Below are positions 50,977 to 59,417 of a stretch of 64,000 bases of DNA, one piece after another. The DNA lies in contig WGOA01000038.1 of the NCBI GenBank assembly GCA_016124275.1, positions 1-64,000 on the forward strand, in the 5' to 3' direction. The DNA is from Bacteroidota bacterium. GTDB taxonomy: Bacteria; Bacteroidota; Bacteroidia; Chitinophagales; BACL12. Position numbers and translations under genes: made by a program. The notes beneath the pieces are model-generated. The model was not told where the DNA came from. It worked only from the letters and a program-made list of their open reading frames with translations, and ran no database searches. Within the stretch, counting starts at the first letter, position 1, and each line of letters begins with the position of its first letter.

Positions 50977-51414
50977 AATATTCTGATTTGAAACGATTGA
51001 GTACCCTGGCAAAGTAGGTGTGCCATGCAGTACTGTCAAGGGCTGTTGCCTTATGGTACAGCTTTGTATCCGCTGAAGTCTTGAGGGATTTTTCTCAAAT
51101 GGTTAAAGGAAAACATGGAAAATGTTTTGTCCCTTCGCGCCCTATCCAGCAGTATAAAAAGCTGGCCTCATGTATGCGCAAGCAGGACTTGGCCTACACA
51201 TGGCGCGCAAAAAAATCTCAACAAAACCTTTGAAAGCTGCCCAAAGAGCCGTATTGAATTGATAACAGCCACCAGGATTAGAACAAATCCACTAATTTTT
51301 TGGCAGGATTAGAATTTTTGTTCTAATTTTACCCTAACCAATTGGGCTTGTAGATCAAAGGCTACAAACCTTTTTGACCAAAAGCCACCAGCGTTAAATG
51401 CCAGTGCCACCAGG
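50977..51414. other. Divergent intergenic region with inverted repeats
   Basis: This 438-bp gap lies between a T9SS gene and the TetR gene. No convincing gene is present. It contains an inverted repeat AAAACAT/ATGTTTT (51110-51116 with 51122-51128), an 11-bp inverted repeat (51277-51287 with 51317-51327) and TTGTAG/CTACAA (51348-51353 with 51362-51367). A TACTTTG near the T9SS gene on the minus strand may be its -7 box. Confidence 0.5.
51277..51327. repeat. Inverted and direct GGATTAGAA repeats upstream of the TetR gene
   Basis: ATTAGAACAAA at 51277-51287 is exactly reverse-complementary to TTTGTTCTAAT at 51317-51327. A further copy, ATTAGAA at 51308-51314, forms a tighter inverted repeat with TTCTAAT (51321-51327) across 6 nt. 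Three copies of one half-site about 90-140 bp before a regulator gene suggest a protein-binding site, possibly autoregulatory. Confidence 0.5.
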
Positions 51415-52221
51415 TTGTCCCCACAATCTCACCTTGTGATCAGTACCAAAGACAAAATTCTTCTGGCCGCCGTTGACCTGTTCAATGATAAGGGCTTTGT
51501 CAATGTAACCTTGAGGGACATTGCCGCAGACTCTGGTATTTCGCCGGGCAACCTGGCCTACCATTTTCGCAACAAAGACGTGGTGCTTCTGGAAATCTAC
51601 GAGCGCATGGATCAGGAACTTGCCGAGCGCGTTTCCAATATTCGCCGGATCCCTTCCTTTGAAAACATCGACTACGAAATCACGCCCTTTTTAGAATTTC
51701 AACACAAGTATCGCTTTTTCTACCTCGATGCCCTGGAAGTCTGTCGGGCTTACCCGGAAATAGCGCTGCGCCATCGGGAACAAGGCCTTCAGCAAATTGC
51801 AGCCATCCGCGCGGTTATTCAGTACTCCATAGAGCGCGGCAACATGCTGCCGGAACGGGTATCCGGTACCTACGATCGATTGGCGCACACTGTTTGGATG
51901 CTTTACTCTTTCTGGCTCAGCCAGGCCCTGATCCTGCGGGCATCAGGAGGCGATCGATCCGAAAAACCGTTCAAAAAACCACAGCGACGAACGCAGCATA
52001 GCATGTTGGAGCGGGCAAGTGCAAAAAAAACTACCCGCCAGATGATGGAGGGCGAAGGTTCAATAGCCGCAGAGCAACAACCTGCGTATTCCCCCAACCT
52101 TGGCGCCCGGGAAGCCCGACGTACCCTGTGGACGATGGTACTTCCCTACCTCACCGCCAAGGGTAAAAACAATTTTGAAACCGTCGCGCAAATGCACGGA
52201 CTTAGCGAAGGGAACACCTAA
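51415..52221 (+). CDS. TetR/AcrR-family transcriptional regulator
   Basis: 268 residues. The N-terminal TetR helix-turn-helix is clear: KILLAAVDLFNDKGFVNVTLRDIAADSGISPGNLAYHFRNKDVVLLEIYERM. The helical ligand-binding half extends to the C-terminus, which is longer than usual and has a Lys/Gln-rich loop near 180-220. No in-frame ATG precedes the DNA-binding helices; starts are TTG at 51415 or GTG at 51436. It lies 14 bp upstream of the acyl-CoA dehydrogenase gene and probably controls this cluster in response to an acyl-CoA. Confidence 0.88.
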   Translation: MSPQSHLVISTKDKILLAAVDLFNDKGFVNVTLRDIAADSGISPGNLAYHFRNKDVVLLEIYERMDQELAERVSNIRRIPSFENIDYEITPFLEFQHKYRFFYLDALEVCRAYPEIALRHREQGLQQIAAIRAVIQYSIERGNMLPERVSGTYDRLAHTVWMLYSFWLSQALILRASGGDRSEKPFKKPQRRTQHSMLERASAKKTTRQMMEGEGSIAAEQQPAYSPNLGAREARRTLWTMVLPYLTAKGKNNFETVAQMHGLSEGNT

Positions 52222-52235
52222 CAAAACCAAGCCAC

Positions 52236-53429
52236 ATGAACTTTAATCCCTTTACGGATGAACACGAATTACTGGCGCAATCCGTGCGCGAATTTTTGAA
52301 CCGGGAAGTAATGCCTCACGCAGCCCGCTGGGAAAAAGAAGAGCACTGCCCGCGCGAGATTTTTCAGCGCATGGGCGAACTGGGATTTTTTGGTGTTACC
52401 TACCCGGAAGAAGTTGGCGGATCGGGTATGGATTTTTGGGCTGCCGTCACGGTAGCGCGAGAATTGTCCTACGCTAATGTTGGCGGTTTGGCGCTTTCAC
52501 TTTTTGCTCATGCGTATTTGCCCCCGCCATTGCTCAGTGCCATCGGCACGCCGGAACAAAAGGAAAACTATCTTTTGCCCGCATTGCGGGGCGAAAAAAT
52601 TGGTTCGCTGGCCATTTCGGAACCAGGAGCAGGATCCGATGTTGGCGGCATCCGTACGACAGCAGAAGACAAGGGCGATCATTACGTGATTAATGGCAGC
52701 AAGTGCTGGATTACCAATGGCACCATGGCCGACTTCCTGGTCCTGGCTACCCGTACCGGGGAGGGCCACAACCTCACGTTGTTTTGCTTTGACACAAAAA
52801 CCGAAGGATTCAGCAGCAGCAAAATCAAGGACAAACTGGGCATGCACAGTTCCGATACCGCGGAGTTGTTTTTTGACAATTGCAAAGTACCAAAATCAGC
52901 GGTGATTGGGCATCCGGGCATGGGCTTCTACTACATTATGAACAACTTTCAGGAAGAGCGCCTGATCGGGGCGGTTTCCGGGGTTTTTGCCGCTGAATAC
53001 GCGTACCGCAAGGCTGTCGAGTACTCCCGGCAGCGCGAGGCATTTGGCCGGCAGATTGGCAAATTCCAAGTCATCCGACACAAACTGGCCAGCATGGCTA
53101 CCCGCCTTGAAGCTTGCCGTTCTCTGGGTTACCGCGCGGTCTATGAATTCATTGAAACAGGTCCGGCAGCCGTAGGCACCATTTCCATGGCTAAGGCATT
53201 CATCGGTGAAGAAATCCAAGTCATCATCTACGATGCCATCCAAATTCTGGGCGGCGTAGGGTACACGGAAGAATACGGTGTAGCGCGCACGTATCGCGAC
53301 ATGCGACTGTTCACCATCGGAGGGGGTACTACAGAAATCATGTACGAAATCATCTCGCGTTTGGTGGTGGACCAAGCCCAGTACAGCAAACAAATGATGA
53401 CGAGTCGCGATCAGGCTGCTGTGTCTTGA
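52236..53429 (+). CDS. Acyl-CoA dehydrogenase
   Basis: A 397-residue FAD enzyme that introduces the alpha,beta double bond in acyl-CoAs and passes electrons to ETF. Seen are AISEPGAGSDVGGIRTTAE, CWITNGTMADFLVL, YSRQREAFGRQIGKFQVIRHKLASMATRLEA, ILGGVGYTEEYGVARTYRDMRLFTIGGGTTEIMYEII. Its neighbours make isovaleryl- or another branched acyl-CoA the likely substrate, but the sequence alone does not settle this. The stop codon falls inside a 20-bp palindrome. Confidence 0.94.
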   Translation: MNFNPFTDEHELLAQSVREFLNREVMPHAARWEKEEHCPREIFQRMGELGFFGVTYPEEVGGSGMDFWAAVTVARELSYANVGGLALSLFAHAYLPPPLLSAIGTPEQKENYLLPALRGEKIGSLAISEPGAGSDVGGIRTTAEDKGDHYVINGSKCWITNGTMADFLVLATRTGEGHNLTLFCFDTKTEGFSSSKIKDKLGMHSSDTAELFFDNCKVPKSAVIGHPGMGFYYIMNNFQEERLIGAVSGVFAAEYAYRKAVEYSRQREAFGRQIGKFQVIRHKLASMATRLEACRSLGYRAVYEFIETGPAAVGTISMAKAFIGEEIQVIIYDAIQILGGVGYTEEYGVARTYRDMRLFTIGGGTTEIMYEIISRLVVDQAQYSKQMMTSRDQAAVS

Positions 53430-53445
53430 ACGAACGTTCGTTCAA
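53426..53445. promoter_or_regulatory. Perfect 20-bp palindrome, candidate TetR operator
   Basis: TTGAACGAACGTTCGTTCAA is a perfect palindrome. It overlaps the TGA of the acyl-CoA dehydrogenase and lies in the 76-bp gap before the carboxylase beta gene. TetR-family operators are typically palindromes of this size, and a TetR gene is two genes upstream. A stem-loop (8 bp, 4-nt loop) is possible, but no T tract follows. Confidence 0.6.
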
Positions 53446-53505
53446 ATAGATAAAACACCCGCTCGTGCAACAGCAATTGCTTCCTGGTTCACACCGCTCC
53501 ACTCA

Positions 53506-55152
53506 ATGACCTATCCATCACGCCTGGACAACAACCCCGCTCCTGTGCTACCCTCTCCCAACCGGCCCATAAAAACCCGTGTCAACCCGCGCTCTGCGGA
53601 GTACCAGGCAAACCGCGAAGCCAACCTGGCCTTGTTGGCCATGTTGGATGAACACCTCAAATCCGCGCGATTTGAGGGCAAAGAACAACACCTGGCCAAG
53701 GCTCGCAAGCTCGGCAAGTTCACCGCCCGCGAGCGGATTGAACTGTTGCTTGATCCCGATACGCCCTTTCTGGAGTTGTTGCCGCTGGCCGGACTTGGTG
53801 GGGATGGGTTTGGGCCCGGGGGCACATCCGTCGGGGGAATGGGGTTGGTCTGCGGGCGACTGGTCATGGTCATTGCCAACGTAGGAACCCGCAAAGGCGG
53901 AGCCGTAGATTACGCAACGCTCCAAAAGGCTTTGCGCCTGAACGAGATTGCCATGGAAAACCAGTTGCCGGTGGTTAGCCTGGTAGAAAGCTCCGGCGCC
54001 AACCTGCCGGAGCAAGCTCGTATCTTTAATTATGGTGGAGCAAGCTTTCGCGACATCACCCGCCGATCCAAAGCAGGCCTTCCAAACATTGCCATCGTCT
54101 TTGGCAACAGCACGGCCGGAGGTGCCTATGTTCCGGGCATGTCGGATTATGCCATTTTCGTCGATGGCGGAGCCAAGGTTTTTTTGGCAGGACCACCGCT
54201 GGTCAAAATGGCCACCGGCGAAGACGTGGATGACGAAAGCCTTGGTGGGGCTGCCATGCACAGCCGGGTAAGTGGTGTCAGCGACTATCTGGCTCGCGAT
54301 GAACGAGACGCCATTCGCCTGGCGCGCGAAATTGTGGGGGGGCTGCCTTCGGGTGCAAGTCCGGTCAAATCCGCAGCAGAGGAACCCCTATACGCAGCGG
54401 AGGAATTGCTTGGTATTCTTTCGCCCGACTTGAAAAAGCCACTCGATATGCGCGAAGTCATTGCACGGGTATGCGATGGCTCCCGTTTCTCCGAATTCAA
54501 ACCGGAGTACGGCCCTACCCTCATCACCGGATTCGCGGAGCTCAACGGTTACCCAGTAGGAATTTTGGCCAACAACGGCGTGTTGTTTAGTGAAGCGGCC
54601 AACAAAGGCGCACACTTTATTCAACTCTGTAACCAGCGGAATCACCCTATCTTGTTTTTCCAAAACATAACAGGATTTATGGTTGGAAAGGATTATGAAG
54701 AAGGGGGAATTATCAAACACGGCGCCAAACTGATCAACGCCGTGAGCAACTCCGAAGTGCCTGCCATTACGCTGATGATGGGGGCTTCTTATGGGGCAGG
54801 CAATTACGCCATGGCCGGCCGCGCATACCAGCCTCGCTTTCTTTTTTCGTACCCCCATTCCCGCACGGCGGTCATGGGTCCCGAGCAGCTCTCCGGGGTC
54901 ATGCAAAGTATCCAACGCGAAGCCGCGCTCAAAGCGGGCATCCCCTACGATGAAGAGCAAGGCGCACAAATGCGAACCTACATGATGAAAGAAGTAGAAA
55001 AAAAATCCGACGCCTGGTACAGCACCGGTCAGTTGTGGGACGACGGCATCATAGACCCGCGACAAACCAGGAATTATCTCGGCTTTTGTTTAGAAGTCAT
55101 TAACCAGCACCCTTTTAAGGGAAGCAGTGGTTACGGCGTTTTCCGCATGTAA
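53506..55152 (+). CDS. Acyl-CoA carboxylase, carboxyltransferase subunit (methylcrotonyl-CoA type)
   Basis: 548 residues with the tandem crotonase folds of biotin-dependent carboxyltransferases. Seen are KFTARERIELLLDPDTPFLE, VSLVESSGANLPEQARIF, NSTAGGAYVPGMSDYAIFVDGGAKVFLAGPPLV and the C-terminal half with FFQNITGFMVGKDYEEGGIIKHGAKLINAVSNSEVPAITLMMGASYGAGNYAM. The spacing and these motifs fit the 3-methylcrotonyl-CoA/geranyl-CoA carboxylase beta branch and not propionyl-CoA carboxylase; I infer methylcrotonyl-CoA, an intermediate of leucine breakdown. The alpha subunit follows after about 26 bp. Confidence 0.92.
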   Translation: MTYPSRLDNNPAPVLPSPNRPIKTRVNPRSAEYQANREANLALLAMLDEHLKSARFEGKEQHLAKARKLGKFTARERIELLLDPDTPFLELLPLAGLGGDGFGPGGTSVGGMGLVCGRLVMVIANVGTRKGGAVDYATLQKALRLNEIAMENQLPVVSLVESSGANLPEQARIFNYGGASFRDITRRSKAGLPNIAIVFGNSTAGGAYVPGMSDYAIFVDGGAKVFLAGPPLVKMATGEDVDDESLGGAAMHSRVSGVSDYLARDERDAIRLAREIVGGLPSGASPVKSAAEEPLYAAEELLGILSPDLKKPLDMREVIARVCDGSRFSEFKPEYGPTLITGFAELNGYPVGILANNGVLFSEAANKGAHFIQLCNQRNHPILFFQNITGFMVGKDYEEGGIIKHGAKLINAVSNSEVPAITLMMGASYGAGNYAMAGRAYQPRFLFSYPHSRTAVMGPEQLSGVMQSIQREAALKAGIPYDEEQGAQMRTYMMKEVEKKSDAWYSTGQLWDDGIIDPRQTRNYLGFCLEVINQHPFKGSSGYGVFRM

Positions 55153-55178
55153 AGGAGCAATCGTTGTCCAACTCTGCC

Positions 55179-57284
55179 ATGAAACCAACCCTTCGACCCA
55201 TCCACACGCTGCTTATTGCCAACCGCGGGGAAATTGCCGTGCGCATAGCCAAAACCTGCCGGTCCATGGGCATTAAAAGTGTGGCTGTTTACAGCGATGC
55301 TGACCGCGATGCCCGGCACACCCGCAGCACGGACATAGCCATCCATATTGGTCCTGCCGCGGTGAGCGCCTCTTACCTGAACCAGCAGGCGCTCTTGGAA
55401 GCAGCCCGTCAAAGCGGTGCCGACGCCATTCACCCAGGCTATGGCTTTCTGAGCGAAAACGCAAGTTTTGCCCAAGCGGTGCTCGATGCCGGCTTGATTT
55501 GGGTAGGACCCCATCCGGAAGCCATCGCGCAAATGGGCTCCAAAGCAGGCGCTAAATCCATTATGCAAACCCACGGTGTGCCGGTCGTGCCTGGGTACAG
55601 CGGCGAGGACCAAAGTGACCAACGCTTTCTGGCAGAAGCGGCCGGCATTGAGTTCCCTCTACTGGTCAAAGCCAGCGCTGGAGGCGGGGGAAAAGGCATG
55701 GTTATTGTGCGCGACCTCGCCGCGCTTCCCGAAGCCCTGGGCCGTGCCCGGCGTGAAGCCCAGGCCGCTTTTGGCGATCAGCGGCTTATTCTGGAACGCT
55801 ACTGCGAGCGCGTGCGCCATGTTGAATTCCAGATTCTCGGCGACAAACACGGCAATGCCCTGCACTTGTTTGAACGGGAATGTTCGCTTCAGCGCCGCTA
55901 CCAAAAAATCCTTGAAGAGAGCCCCTCACCGGCACTCCATCCGCAGCTCCGCGAGCGCATGGGGCAGGCCGCTGTTGCGGCAGCAAAAGCCCTGGGATAC
56001 GACAATGCCGGAACCGTAGAATTTATTCTGCTTCCGGATGGCAGCTTTTACTTTCTGGAGGTCAACACACGCCTGCAAGTGGAGCACCCGGTTACGGAAA
56101 TGATTACAGGCCTTGACTTGGTAAAGGCACAGCTCGAAGTGGCCGAAGGGCAAGCCCTGACCTTGACCCAGGACCAGCTGCAACAGCGGGGTTATGCGCT
56201 GGAATTGCGCTTGTACGCCGAAGATCCGGCTGCGGGCTTTTTGCCGGCGTCGGGCCCGGTTTTGCGCTGGGAATTGCCGGAAATTGAAGGTTTTCGCTGC
56301 GATAGCGGCGTAGAAAGCGGCAGCGAAATTGGCACCCACTACGACCCGTTGCTTGCTAAACTTATCGCTTGGGGACAAGACCGCCGTATGGCCTTTCGGC
56401 GCATGCAGTTAGCGTTGGACCAGATGGCCTGCCTTGGTCTCATCACCAACCAACCCTTTCTAAGTGCCTTGGTTCGAAAGGATGACGTGCGCCAGGGCAA
56501 CTACCACACCCATTTTCTGGATGAACACCCTGAACTGGCTGCCGAAGCCCCTCTTTCGCCAGATGCCGTTCAGGAACTTTTCATGGCAATGACGCTTCGC
56601 CAGGCATGGCTCAATAGGCAGCAGCAATCCCTGCTGCGCGGGCTACCCCCAGGATGGCGCAATGTGCCGGCTCCCCTGCCGGAACTTCGTTGGGTGCTGC
56701 GTGGTGAGGTATGGCTCGTGCGTTATGAACATCTAACTGTGGCAGACCATGTCACGTCGGGTTCGGAGCCCAAATTGACCCTGAGCGTCCTGGAATGCCA
56801 CCTGGCTGAAGATGCGGAAACAAAAATAGAGCGCAGGGTAACCTGGGTATCCGGCGATGAGCACGCGGCCATATTGGACATTGACGGCAAACGCGCTCGT
56901 TGGGTTTTCGCCAGCCAGGACACCGATCGTGTGTGGGTGCAGCACCCTTCGTCGGGTCCGGTCTGTGTTGCCCTTCACCCGAAATTTCCAGAGGCGTTGT
57001 CCGATGTAAATGCAGGCGGTTACGCGGCGCCGATGCCCGCTGAAGTCACCGCAGTCCATGTGCTGGAAGGACAGGTAGTGGAAGCCGGACAACCCTTGGT
57101 TGTGTTGTATTCCATGAAAATGGAACACACTATTTCCGCTGACCACGCGGGTTATGTGTCCGTCTTAAACGTCCGCGCCGGCGACCGGGTAGAAACCGGA
57201 TCCGTGCTGCTCCAATTGGAAGCAAGGAAAGAGAACGATGCTATTGAAGCCGGTGGAACGGATGCAGAAAACGCCAAAACCTGA
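55179..57284 (+). CDS. Acyl-CoA carboxylase, biotin carboxylase/biotin carrier subunit
   Basis: About 701 residues. The biotin carboxylase part (1-450) has IANRGEIAVRIAKTCRSMGI, ASAGGGGKGMVIV, RYQKILEESPSP and EVNTRLQVEHPVTE. A linker domain and a C-terminal biotinyl domain follow, with the biotinylated Lys in YSMKMEH (about residue 646). It charges biotin with bicarbonate for the neighbouring beta subunit. The start is uncertain: an AAGGAG lies 6 nt before a TTG at 55164, while the first in-frame ATG is 55179. The stop at 57284 lies 94 bp before the next gene. Confidence 0.93.
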   Translation: MKPTLRPIHTLLIANRGEIAVRIAKTCRSMGIKSVAVYSDADRDARHTRSTDIAIHIGPAAVSASYLNQQALLEAARQSGADAIHPGYGFLSENASFAQAVLDAGLIWVGPHPEAIAQMGSKAGAKSIMQTHGVPVVPGYSGEDQSDQRFLAEAAGIEFPLLVKASAGGGGKGMVIVRDLAALPEALGRARREAQAAFGDQRLILERYCERVRHVEFQILGDKHGNALHLFERECSLQRRYQKILEESPSPALHPQLRERMGQAAVAAAKALGYDNAGTVEFILLPDGSFYFLEVNTRLQVEHPVTEMITGLDLVKAQLEVAEGQALTLTQDQLQQRGYALELRLYAEDPAAGFLPASGPVLRWELPEIEGFRCDSGVESGSEIGTHYDPLLAKLIAWGQDRRMAFRRMQLALDQMACLGLITNQPFLSALVRKDDVRQGNYHTHFLDEHPELAAEAPLSPDAVQELFMAMTLRQAWLNRQQQSLLRGLPPGWRNVPAPLPELRWVLRGEVWLVRYEHLTVADHVTSGSEPKLTLSVLECHLAEDAETKIERRVTWVSGDEHAAILDIDGKRARWVFASQDTDRVWVQHPSSGPVCVALHPKFPEALSDVNAGGYAAPMPAEVTAVHVLEGQVVEAGQPLVVLYSMKMEHTISADHAGYVSVLNVRAGDRVETGSVLLQLEARKENDAIEAGGTDAENAKT

Positions 57285-57378
57285 CCCTTGGCTCCAGGTT
57301 ATCCGCGCTGCAAATCCTCGCGAAACATCAAACATCTCCCAGCTTGACCGAACTTTGCCCAACCCCATTCCTGTTGCC

Positions 57379-58212
57379 ATGACTACGATGCCCTATACCG
57401 CGGAGCAATGTTCCGCTTTTCATACCACGCGTTTTGTGTACCTGGAACTAAAAGAGCGGGAACACTTTCTGGAAATCCGGCTCAACCGGCCCGAAAAGCG
57501 CAATGCCTTTGATCCGGTTATGGTGCGGGAATTGGCTTTTGCGATGAGTTACGCGCACCATGCTTCCGCAGTTTGGGCAGTGCTCCTTGCGGCAAACGGG
57601 CCTGTGTTTTGCGCCGGGGCTGATTTAAAGGCTTTTGCGGGCATGGCGCAGGAAGATCCTGGATCAGGGGTTCCTCTGGCTTCGGGCGAAATTGCTTTAG
57701 GCGATTTGTTTCGCCGGCTGCACAAGCCCTGCATTGCGCGCGTGCATGGCGATGTTCACGCTGGGGGATTCTTGCTGATTGGCGGCTGTACGCATGTTCT
57801 CGCGGCAAAGGGAACCCGTTTCAGTCTGCCCGAAGTGGAACGCGGCATCTGGCCAATGCAAGTCATGGCCACACTGGCCGACCTGATGCCAGCCCGGCAA
57901 TTGCTGGATTGGTGCATGCGCGGCTTGAGTCTCCAAGCAGAAGAGGCCCAACAACGGGGCTTGGTTACCCAAGTAGTAGAGCCAGATGAGCTGGATGCCG
58001 CTGTCGAAACCTTGCTCGGACAAATTCTATCGAAATCGCCATCAGCCATTCGCCTGGGACTGCAGGCTTGGGATGATCTACGCGCTGTGGCACCGCAGGA
58101 TCAACACGCGTTTCTTCAACAAATGCTGGCAAAAACGCTGCAAACCCGCGATGCCCGGGAAGGCTTGACAGCGTTCCGCGAAAAGCGCTTGCCGGTCTGG
58201 ACCGGAGAGTAA
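57379..58212 (+). CDS. Enoyl-CoA hydratase/isomerase family protein
   Basis: About 277 residues of crotonase fold. Seen are FLEIRLNRPEKRNAFDPVMV, the oxyanion-hole segment GPVFCAGADLKAFA, IARVHGDVHAGGFLLIGGCTHVLA and FSLPEVERGIWPMQVMATLADLMPARQLLDWCMRGLSLQAEEAQQRGLVTQVV. One of the two usual acidic catalytic residues seems replaced by Gly/Ala in the HAGG region. In this cluster it may be methylglutaconyl-CoA hydratase. The ATG at 57379 is preferred over an earlier ATG at 57238 that overlaps the carboxylase gene. Confidence 0.88.
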   Translation: MTTMPYTAEQCSAFHTTRFVYLELKEREHFLEIRLNRPEKRNAFDPVMVRELAFAMSYAHHASAVWAVLLAANGPVFCAGADLKAFAGMAQEDPGSGVPLASGEIALGDLFRRLHKPCIARVHGDVHAGGFLLIGGCTHVLAAKGTRFSLPEVERGIWPMQVMATLADLMPARQLLDWCMRGLSLQAEEAQQRGLVTQVVEPDELDAAVETLLGQILSKSPSAIRLGLQAWDDLRAVAPQDQHAFLQQMLAKTLQTRDAREGLTAFREKRLPVWTGE

Positions 58213-58260
58213 AGCTTTTTTTTCTATAACAACTAACTTTTCATACCAACCCCAACTACC

Positions 58261-58557
58261 ATGAGCATTGAAAATGCAACCACCCGCGTGAGCGCCCTTG
58301 CCGGAAAAACCGGCGGATTTGGCAGCACGCTCAAGTTTGTTTTTGACGAAGGCATCGTTTACCTGGACGGTACCGGAGAACAAACTGCCGTACACAACGA
58401 AGACAAAGCGGCGCAGTGCACCATCGGCATGAAGTTGAGCGATTTCAACGACCTGCTCGACGGGAGCCTGAAACCGATGACCGCTTTCATGACCGGCAAG
58501 TTCAAAATTGAAGGCGACATGGGCGTTGCCATGAAATTGCAATCGCTGTTTTCATAA
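58261..58557 (+). CDS. SCP2 sterol-binding domain protein
   Basis: A complete 98-residue SCP2-type lipid-binding protein. Seen are GSTLKFVFDEGIVYLDGTG, CTIGMKLSDFNDLLDGSLKPMTAFMTGKFKIEGDMGVAMKLQSLF, the near-full domain with its conserved KIEGD. Such stand-alone domains bind acyl-CoAs or lipids and often sit near beta-oxidation genes, as here. Confidence 0.93.
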   Translation: MSIENATTRVSALAGKTGGFGSTLKFVFDEGIVYLDGTGEQTAVHNEDKAAQCTIGMKLSDFNDLLDGSLKPMTAFMTGKFKIEGDMGVAMKLQSLFS

Positions 58558-58561
58558 TTCA

Positions 58562-58607
58562 GGAAGGAGTCGGTCAGGGTCTTGATGGACCCGCGCCGAC
58601 TCCTTCC
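58562..58607 (+). terminator. Probable terminator between SCP2 and SDR genes
   Basis: A 12-bp perfect stem (GGAAGGAGTCGG at 58562-58573 with CCGACTCCTTCC at 58596-58607), large loop of 22 nt, followed by ATAGTTTTC. The U tract is imperfect, so it may attenuate and not fully stop transcription. Confidence 0.6.
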
Positions 58608-58619
58608 ATAGTTTTCTTT

Positions 58620-59417
58620 ATGATGTACGCATCCGATTTGTTTGCTGGCCAGGTTTGCCTGGTGACCGGAGGGGGCTCTGGAATTGGCTATGCCATTGCA
58701 CAAGCCTATCTGCGCTGCGGAGCTACGGTGATTATTGCCTCGCGAAAGGCAGAGCGGCTGGAAGAGGCGCAAAAACAACTCGCTGAACTCGGTCCTGTGC
58801 ATGCCCGGGTGCTCGACATCCGAGAGCCCGAGCAGGGCGACGAGCTGGCCAGCTGGATCGGGCAAACCTTTGGCAAACTGGATGTTCTGGTGAACAATGC
58901 TGGTGGCCAGTTTCCCTCGGCTGCTGCAGACCTTTCCAGGAAGGGTTGGGACGCGGTGATTCGGAACAACTTGAACGGAACTTGGTACCTGACCCAAACC
59001 ATGGCCAAAGCATTCTTTCTTCCCCGTTGTGCTGGCAACATTGTCAATATCATTGCCAACATCTATCGCGGTTTCCCCGGCATGGCTCATACCGGAGCAG
59101 CGCGGGCCGGGGTGGAGAACTTAACAAAAAGCCTTGCGGTGGAATGGGCACCCTACCGCATACGGATTAACGCGGTGGCACCCGGCATTATCCAATCCAC
59201 AGGGCTGGATCAATACCCGCCTTCGCTGCTGGACGGCATCACCGCTAAAATTCCTATGAAACGGCTGGGCAGCACTGCCGAAGTAGCCGATTCTTGTTTG
59301 TTCCTGAGCTCGCCGCTCTCGGCTTACATGACAGGAGAAACCCTGTACCTGGACGGCGGAATGCGGCTCTGGGGGGATATTTGGGATGTCCCGTCTCTGC
59401 AAACACCAACCGTATAA
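58620..59417 (+). CDS. SDR-family oxidoreductase, enoyl/dienoyl-CoA reductase-like
   Basis: 265 residues of Rossmann fold with LVTGGGSGIGYAIA for cofactor binding and VNNAGGQFPSAA. The active-site helix reads GFPGMAHTGAARAGVENLTKSLAVEWAPYRIRINAVAPG: it has the Lys but lacks the canonical Tyr of YxxxK. The same pattern is found in mitochondrial/peroxisomal dienoyl- and trans-2-enoyl-CoA reductases, so an acyl-CoA reductase acting on unsaturated CoA esters is likely. Two ATG codons open the gene (58620 and 58623). Confidence 0.88.
   Translation: MMYASDLFAGQVCLVTGGGSGIGYAIAQAYLRCGATVIIASRKAERLEEAQKQLAELGPVHARVLDIREPEQGDELASWIGQTFGKLDVLVNNAGGQFPSAAADLSRKGWDAVIRNNLNGTWYLTQTMAKAFFLPRCAGNIVNIIANIYRGFPGMAHTGAARAGVENLTKSLAVEWAPYRIRINAVAPGIIQSTGLDQYPPSLLDGITAKIPMKRLGSTAEVADSCLFLSSPLSAYMTGETLYLDGGMRLWGDIWDVPSLQTPTV

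Follow-up and report, generated by a model that had tools for sequence, protein, structure and literature searches.

In the 64-kb stretch of Bacteroidota DNA analysed here (the window), seven genes appear to form a cluster for the catabolism of branched or isoprenoid-type acyl-CoA compounds under two layers of TetR control. A perfect palindrome, TTGAACGAACGTTCGTTCAA, lies inside the cluster, and we propose it as the operator of a second, trans-acting TetR, most likely a protein encoded elsewhere in the genome and called TetR-A (G000:C18); our confidence in this two-layer arrangement is evenly balanced. In the first layer, the TetR encoded at the head of the cluster would repress the operon along with its own gene by binding the TTAG-N10-CTAA sites at 51278-51326, as comparison between relatives leads us to infer. 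In the second, the FadR-like TetR-A would bind the palindrome at 53426-53445 in trans and repress transcription that runs into the carboxylase genes or begins there, and a ligand presumed to be of the acyl-CoA type would release it. The sites and their classes, the second TetR with its own operator, and the geranyl-CoA carboxylase (GCC) type of the carboxylase are read from the DNA, and to these the model adds a putative binding protein, a putative ligand and a putative promoter within 53426-53505.

The palindrome and its class

The palindrome overlaps the stop codon of the acyl-CoA dehydrogenase gene (TGA, 53427-53429) directly 5' of the carboxylase genes, as an earlier sequence-only reading of this DNA had described, and 60 nt separate its end from the ATG of the carboxyltransferase beta gene at 53506. 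Among the perfect even palindromes of the window it is the longest. Composition predicts ~0.06 perfect 20-bp palindromes per 64 kb and ~3.4 per 3.42-Mb genome by chance, so the perfection of the site is by itself modest evidence and the case is built on comparison instead. We consider it unlikely that the palindrome is a chance occurrence, or an mRNA hairpin with no regulatory protein: the number expected per genome and the ordinary RNA fold of the region (z -0.7) agree with such an origin, whereas the number expected per window, the intergenic position ahead of a gene that carries sites of the same class in another family, and the fit to a known consensus speak against it. A terminator or RNA element at this place was also considered and rejected, there being no Rfam match, no T-run and the same unremarkable fold. 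Searching the whole genome showed the site to be unique, as the exact 20-mer has no second match at up to three mismatches; a looser 16-mer search returned 14 places against 9 with a reversed control, most of them within genes. Sites resembling TGAAC-N4-GTTCA upstream of an M16 peptidase gene and a Na/H exchanger gene (L104, L109) look like chance.

According to PMC6651687, the consensus selected by TTHA0973, a TetR repressor from Thermus thermophilus, is AACnAACGTTnGTT, and the 14-mer AACGAACGTTCGTT within the palindrome is an exact instance of it. Similar sites are found in f18, another family of the order, where a search with TTGACCAAACGTTTGGTCAA at up to three mismatches matched 9 of 13 genomes and the sites precede genes for the carboxylase beta subunit, short-chain dehydrogenase/reductase (SDR), acyl-CoA dehydrogenases, thiolase and, divergently, SCP2. 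The SDR gene of G058, whose product is 65% identical to the SDR of the window, has its own palindrome-class site 20 nt upstream. When the 400 nt before beta were compared, taking for many loci the tblastn alignment start rather than a checked start codon, a clear site (at least an 18/20 match to the degenerate pattern TTKAMYRAACGTTYRKTMAA) was present in 8 of 10 f18 genomes and a weak one in G045 and G032; this count leaves out G069, G111 and G123 from the 13. The 14-mer before beta in G099 is identical to that of the window. Outside f18, the same interval lacked a palindrome-class site in all 15 relatives.

TetR-A and other candidate binders

Across the order, TTKAMYRAACGTTYRKTMAA at up to one mismatch has 63 matches, distributed over 50 of the 198 genomes; the window site, which the pattern was designed to cover, fits it with no mismatch. 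At 25 of these places the gene that follows belongs to acyl-CoA catabolism (beta 8, FadB-like 6, acyl-CoA dehydrogenase 3, FadE-like 3, electron transfer flavoprotein (ETF) 3, SDR 1 and thiolase 1), at two it is TetR-A (G016 and G053) and at 12 a gene of another TetR class follows directly; one is the window's own. The other 23 are within genes, are unlinked to acyl-CoA or TetR genes, or belong to the six places (G156, G092, G089, G149, G137 and G041:C9) that lie beyond the gene context, which covers 57 of the 63.

TetR-A itself occurs in each of the eight f18 genomes included in the TetR comparison (G069, G111, G123, G045 and G032 being left out), in G016 and also in the genome of the window, where it shows 41-44% identity. 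The arrangement TTTACCAAAC-N0/4-GTTTGGTAAA, allowing four mismatches, lies upstream of 9 of 10 TetR-A orthologs and of none of 43 other TetRs. Upstream of the own TetR-A gene the match to TTTACCAAAC-N4-GTTTGGTAAA is exact, with perfect 10-bp arms and a 4-nt spacer (C18:32671-32694, L214). This 24-mer is identical in G058, a genome of another family, and the segment GLLKGSIYHYF is common to the TetR-A proteins of both. Since an own-gene operator accompanies nearly all orthologs and sites of the class precede acyl-CoA genes, TetR-A seems to behave as a FadR-type regulator that controls its own gene, and the best reading of the palindrome is that of a site for TetR-A or a close relative. No NCBIfam FadR or PsrA model matches TetR-A. 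The only other 4-nt-spacer site in the own genome, with three mismatches, lies at G000:C79:32208-32231 (L215) just before a gene for a 4Fe-4S protein, possibly an ETF-linked oxidoreductase. More tentatively, and with somewhat more doubt than conviction, TetR-A could be a FadR-like master repressor of beta-oxidation across the order, with the operator TTTACCAAAC-(0 or 4)-GTTTGGTAAA, in which case GCC-type clusters would have been switched between TetR-A and a dedicated local TetR and the window would be the one locus seen with both stacked in a single operon.

Several observations weigh against TetR-A as the binder and against the palindrome as an operator of this class. Under a base-preference model of the acyl-CoA class, built from 27 training sites that score 23.9-35.8, the palindrome reaches 23.8 bits; under a model of the TetR-autoregulation class of C40-like TetRs, with 11 sites at 29.3-33.4, it reaches 27.5 bits, a difference of -3.7 bits toward the latter, and it ranks first in the window under both. 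The half-site of the own TetR-A operator differs from that of the palindrome at 3 of 10 positions, TTKAMYRAACGTTYRKTMAA at up to one mismatch occurs only once in the own genome, and the few perfect 20-bp palindromes that chance alone should supply per genome count in the same direction. Neither a terminator-like nor a promoter-like signal, the Bacteroidota -7 box included, was found at the palindrome boundary. Furthermore, no palindrome-class site precedes beta in G066, the only congener examined, or in G006, the closest beta relative, and near relatives therefore show no conservation of the palindrome at the corresponding place. The exact palindrome was found in none of the relatives examined, and conservation in orthologous clusters is limited to same-class sites before beta in f18.

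The base-preference scores raise an alternative that we regard as unlikely, namely that the palindrome is the trans operator of another TetR, the C40 TetR (G000:C40), a protein with relatives that bind sites of the TTGACYRAMCGKTYRGTCAA type. Besides the slightly better score, one half of a G160 site of that class is identical to the palindrome half, and the own C40 TetR, 22-36% identical to the eleven compared TetRs of the class, is their nearest member in the own genome. However, all 12 sites of the class directly precede their own TetR gene and none an acyl-CoA gene, no such site lies upstream of the own C40 gene, and the recognition segment reads ISLGLLYTYF in the own C40 protein and ISKGLMYNYF in the G160 class member. 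Gene context favours TetR-A and base preference slightly favours C40. The TetR class with TTGACYRAMCGKTYRGTCAA sites directly 5' of its own gene comprises L006, L018, L134, L148, L150, L153, L197, L203, L204, L206, L207 and L208; judged by eye, the loci L006 and L018 adjoin a secreted lipoprotein-sorting-like gene.

The local TetR and the gene cluster

The local TetR gene (51415-52221; PF00440 and PF13972) is preceded by two operator-like sites of the form TTAG-N10-CTAA, TTAGAACAAATCCACTAA at 51278-51295 and TTAGAATTTTTGTTCTAA at 51309-51326, whose 20-nt forms, ATTAGAACAAATCCACTAAT (51277-51296) and ATTAGAATTTTTGTTCTAAT (51308-51327), are both imperfect palindromes. These are the only two copies of the motif in the window. 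The class is conserved upstream of TetR orthologs: when 300 nt were searched, 9 of 13 homologous TetRs of the order had the motif 41-106 nt upstream, and it was not found upstream of L065, L066, L067 and L070. In G022, the genome of L070, the TetR gene follows alpha, and a copy of the motif is found 49 nt ahead of the aligned beta start. The 480 kb of loci compared contain the motif 14 times, and these 14 include the nine TetR-upstream copies and the one before beta in G022. The -7 element of Bacteroidota promoters is TAnnTTTG, and the second site overlaps TAATTTTA (51324), which is one base off this element. Given these observations, it is most probable that the adjacent TetR controls its own gene from an operator of its own that differs from the palindrome.

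The earlier statement that the sole perfect operator-like site is inside the operon is therefore literally true and yet misleading, because imperfect tandem sites precede the regulator, and the contrast drawn with a regulator that has no operator in front of it does not hold. Assigning the palindrome to the adjacent TetR fares no better, as the conserved operator-like motif of this lineage is TTAG-N10-CTAA, whereas the palindrome belongs to a separate class linked to another TetR. That the local TetR also binds the palindrome as a second operator is in our view quite improbable; the two share a locus and a direction, and autoregulated TetRs often have several operators, but the conserved operator of the lineage is unlike the palindrome and a palindrome-class site precedes beta in none of the four relatives with a TetR gene immediately 5' of beta (G006, G012, G066 and G041). 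A search of the genome contigs with the local TetR yielded only two weak relatives. A GTG at 51436 fits the ortholog starts better than 51415, and toward the C-terminal part of the protein there is an insertion of ~50 residues (51950-52120) that is missing from six orthologs (alignment A1).

Gene calls and domain matches agree with the sequence-only reading on gene order and single direction. All seven genes are on the plus strand, with the TetR gene followed by those for acyl-CoA dehydrogenase (52236-53429), the carboxyltransferase beta subunit (53506-55152), the biotin carboxylase and biotin carboxyl carrier alpha subunit (55164-57284), enoyl-CoA hydratase (57379-58212, with a longer frame from 57238), an SCP2 sterol-transfer-like protein (58261-58557) and an SDR oxidoreductase (58620-59417), for which the closest NCBIfam model is 2,4-dienoyl-CoA reductase, scoring below its cut-off. 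A dehydrogenase gene between TetR and beta was seen in the window alone among the loci examined, and its closest ortholog found, in G053 (61%), lies at the far end of a cluster with the order beta-alpha-hydratase-SDR in which no TetR of the local kind was seen. The palindrome hence occupies what looks like a rearrangement junction.

With an operator-like site directly before them, the carboxylase genes are possibly under separate control. The proposal that they form a separate transcription unit gains from this site and from same-class sites before beta in f18, and loses from the missing terminator and -7 box at the boundary. As a place where transcripts may end or be processed, a stronger candidate than the palindrome is a very stable hairpin in the gap between SCP2 and SDR (58562-58607, plus strand), which has 20-nt arms, 85% complementary, and a 6-nt loop, the region 58550-58625 folding at -38.4 kcal/mol (z -6.9). 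The SDR gene may be a separate unit.

Carboxylase type and known systems

According to PMC4673880, beta subunits of methylcrotonyl-CoA carboxylase (MCC) carry a 3-residue insertion immediately ahead of Phe191, and those of GCC have Gly and no insertion. The beta subunit of the window and those of 19 relatives in the order lack the insertion and have Gly at the Phe191 position, except for Ala in G066. Both insertion and Phe are present in the G016 beta and in a canonical MCC-type paralog in the own genome (G000:C78:7145-8755, L093), 43% identical to the window beta. The missing insertion and the Gly suggest, by this rule, that the carboxylase of the cluster is GCC-like in its specificity pocket; the overall scores of the beta subunit are about equal (499.8 bits for MCC, 491.3 for GCC). 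By the same rule its earlier designation as a methylcrotonyl-CoA-type carboxylase is wrong and, the beta being GCC-type, the leucine frame built on it is not supported. A strict leucine pathway is ruled out by the active-site signature of beta, and a branched or isoprenoid acid appears a likelier substrate than leucine alone. The hydratase reaches 98.4 bits against the gamma-carboxygeranoyl-CoA hydratase model, which has a cut-off of 426.

The lyase for 3-hydroxy-3-methylglutaryl-CoA (HMG-CoA), reported earlier as missing, is indeed not encoded in the cluster, but the genome has an HMG-CoA-lyase-like gene at another locus (G000:C61:36115-36912), with 197 bits to PRK05692, below the 246-bit cut-off. 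In two relatives a beta-keto acid cleavage enzyme (PF05853) is encoded between the hydratase or carboxylase genes and the SDR gene (L063:4939-5808 and L069:5358-6248).

Some components of the proposed system have counterparts among described regulators and pathways. TTHA0973, which we take to be PfmR/PaaR and the protein of PDB chain 3vpr, shares with the window an operator consensus, found inside the palindrome, and acyl-CoA-type catabolic targets (phenylacetate); however, the own TetR-A matches chain 3vpr over the DNA-binding domain only, and the targets differ. The acyclic-terpene (Atu) cluster of Pseudomonas contains AtuR, AtuD, the GCC subunits AtuC and AtuF, and AtuE. It has in common with the window a TetR, an acyl-CoA dehydrogenase, a GCC-type carboxylase, a hydratase and an SDR, but the window beta is equally near MCC by score and the hydratase is far below the gamma-carboxygeranoyl-CoA hydratase cut-off. 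Similarly, the Liu leucine/isovalerate cluster encodes the same enzyme classes, whereas the window beta has neither the Phe nor the insertion of MCC and the canonical MCC beta is found at C78 instead. TetR-type FadR regulators of beta-oxidation resemble TetR-A in that sites of the TetR-A class precede FadB, ETF, acyl-CoA dehydrogenase and thiolase genes, although the T. thermophilus FadR consensus given in PMC5597230, TTRNACYNRGTNYAA, is unlike the TetR-A class.

Searches of open-access literature, at the level of listings, showed no described Bacteroidetes TetR regulon of acyl-CoA catabolism and no link between GCC and TetR, and the exact 14-mer AACGAACGTTCGTT was not found in the text of the open-access papers. 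As such, the two operator assignments concern TetR regulators in a bacterial group for which these searches showed no acyl-CoA TetR regulon. In addition, a likely mis-annotation is corrected, as these carboxylases are of the geranyl-CoA type and not the canonical enzymes of the leucine pathway; this directs attention to branched or isoprenoid acids as substrates. Compared with these known systems, the parts are of familiar kinds, and the two-layer arrangement together with the order-wide site class is apparently, if mildly, new.

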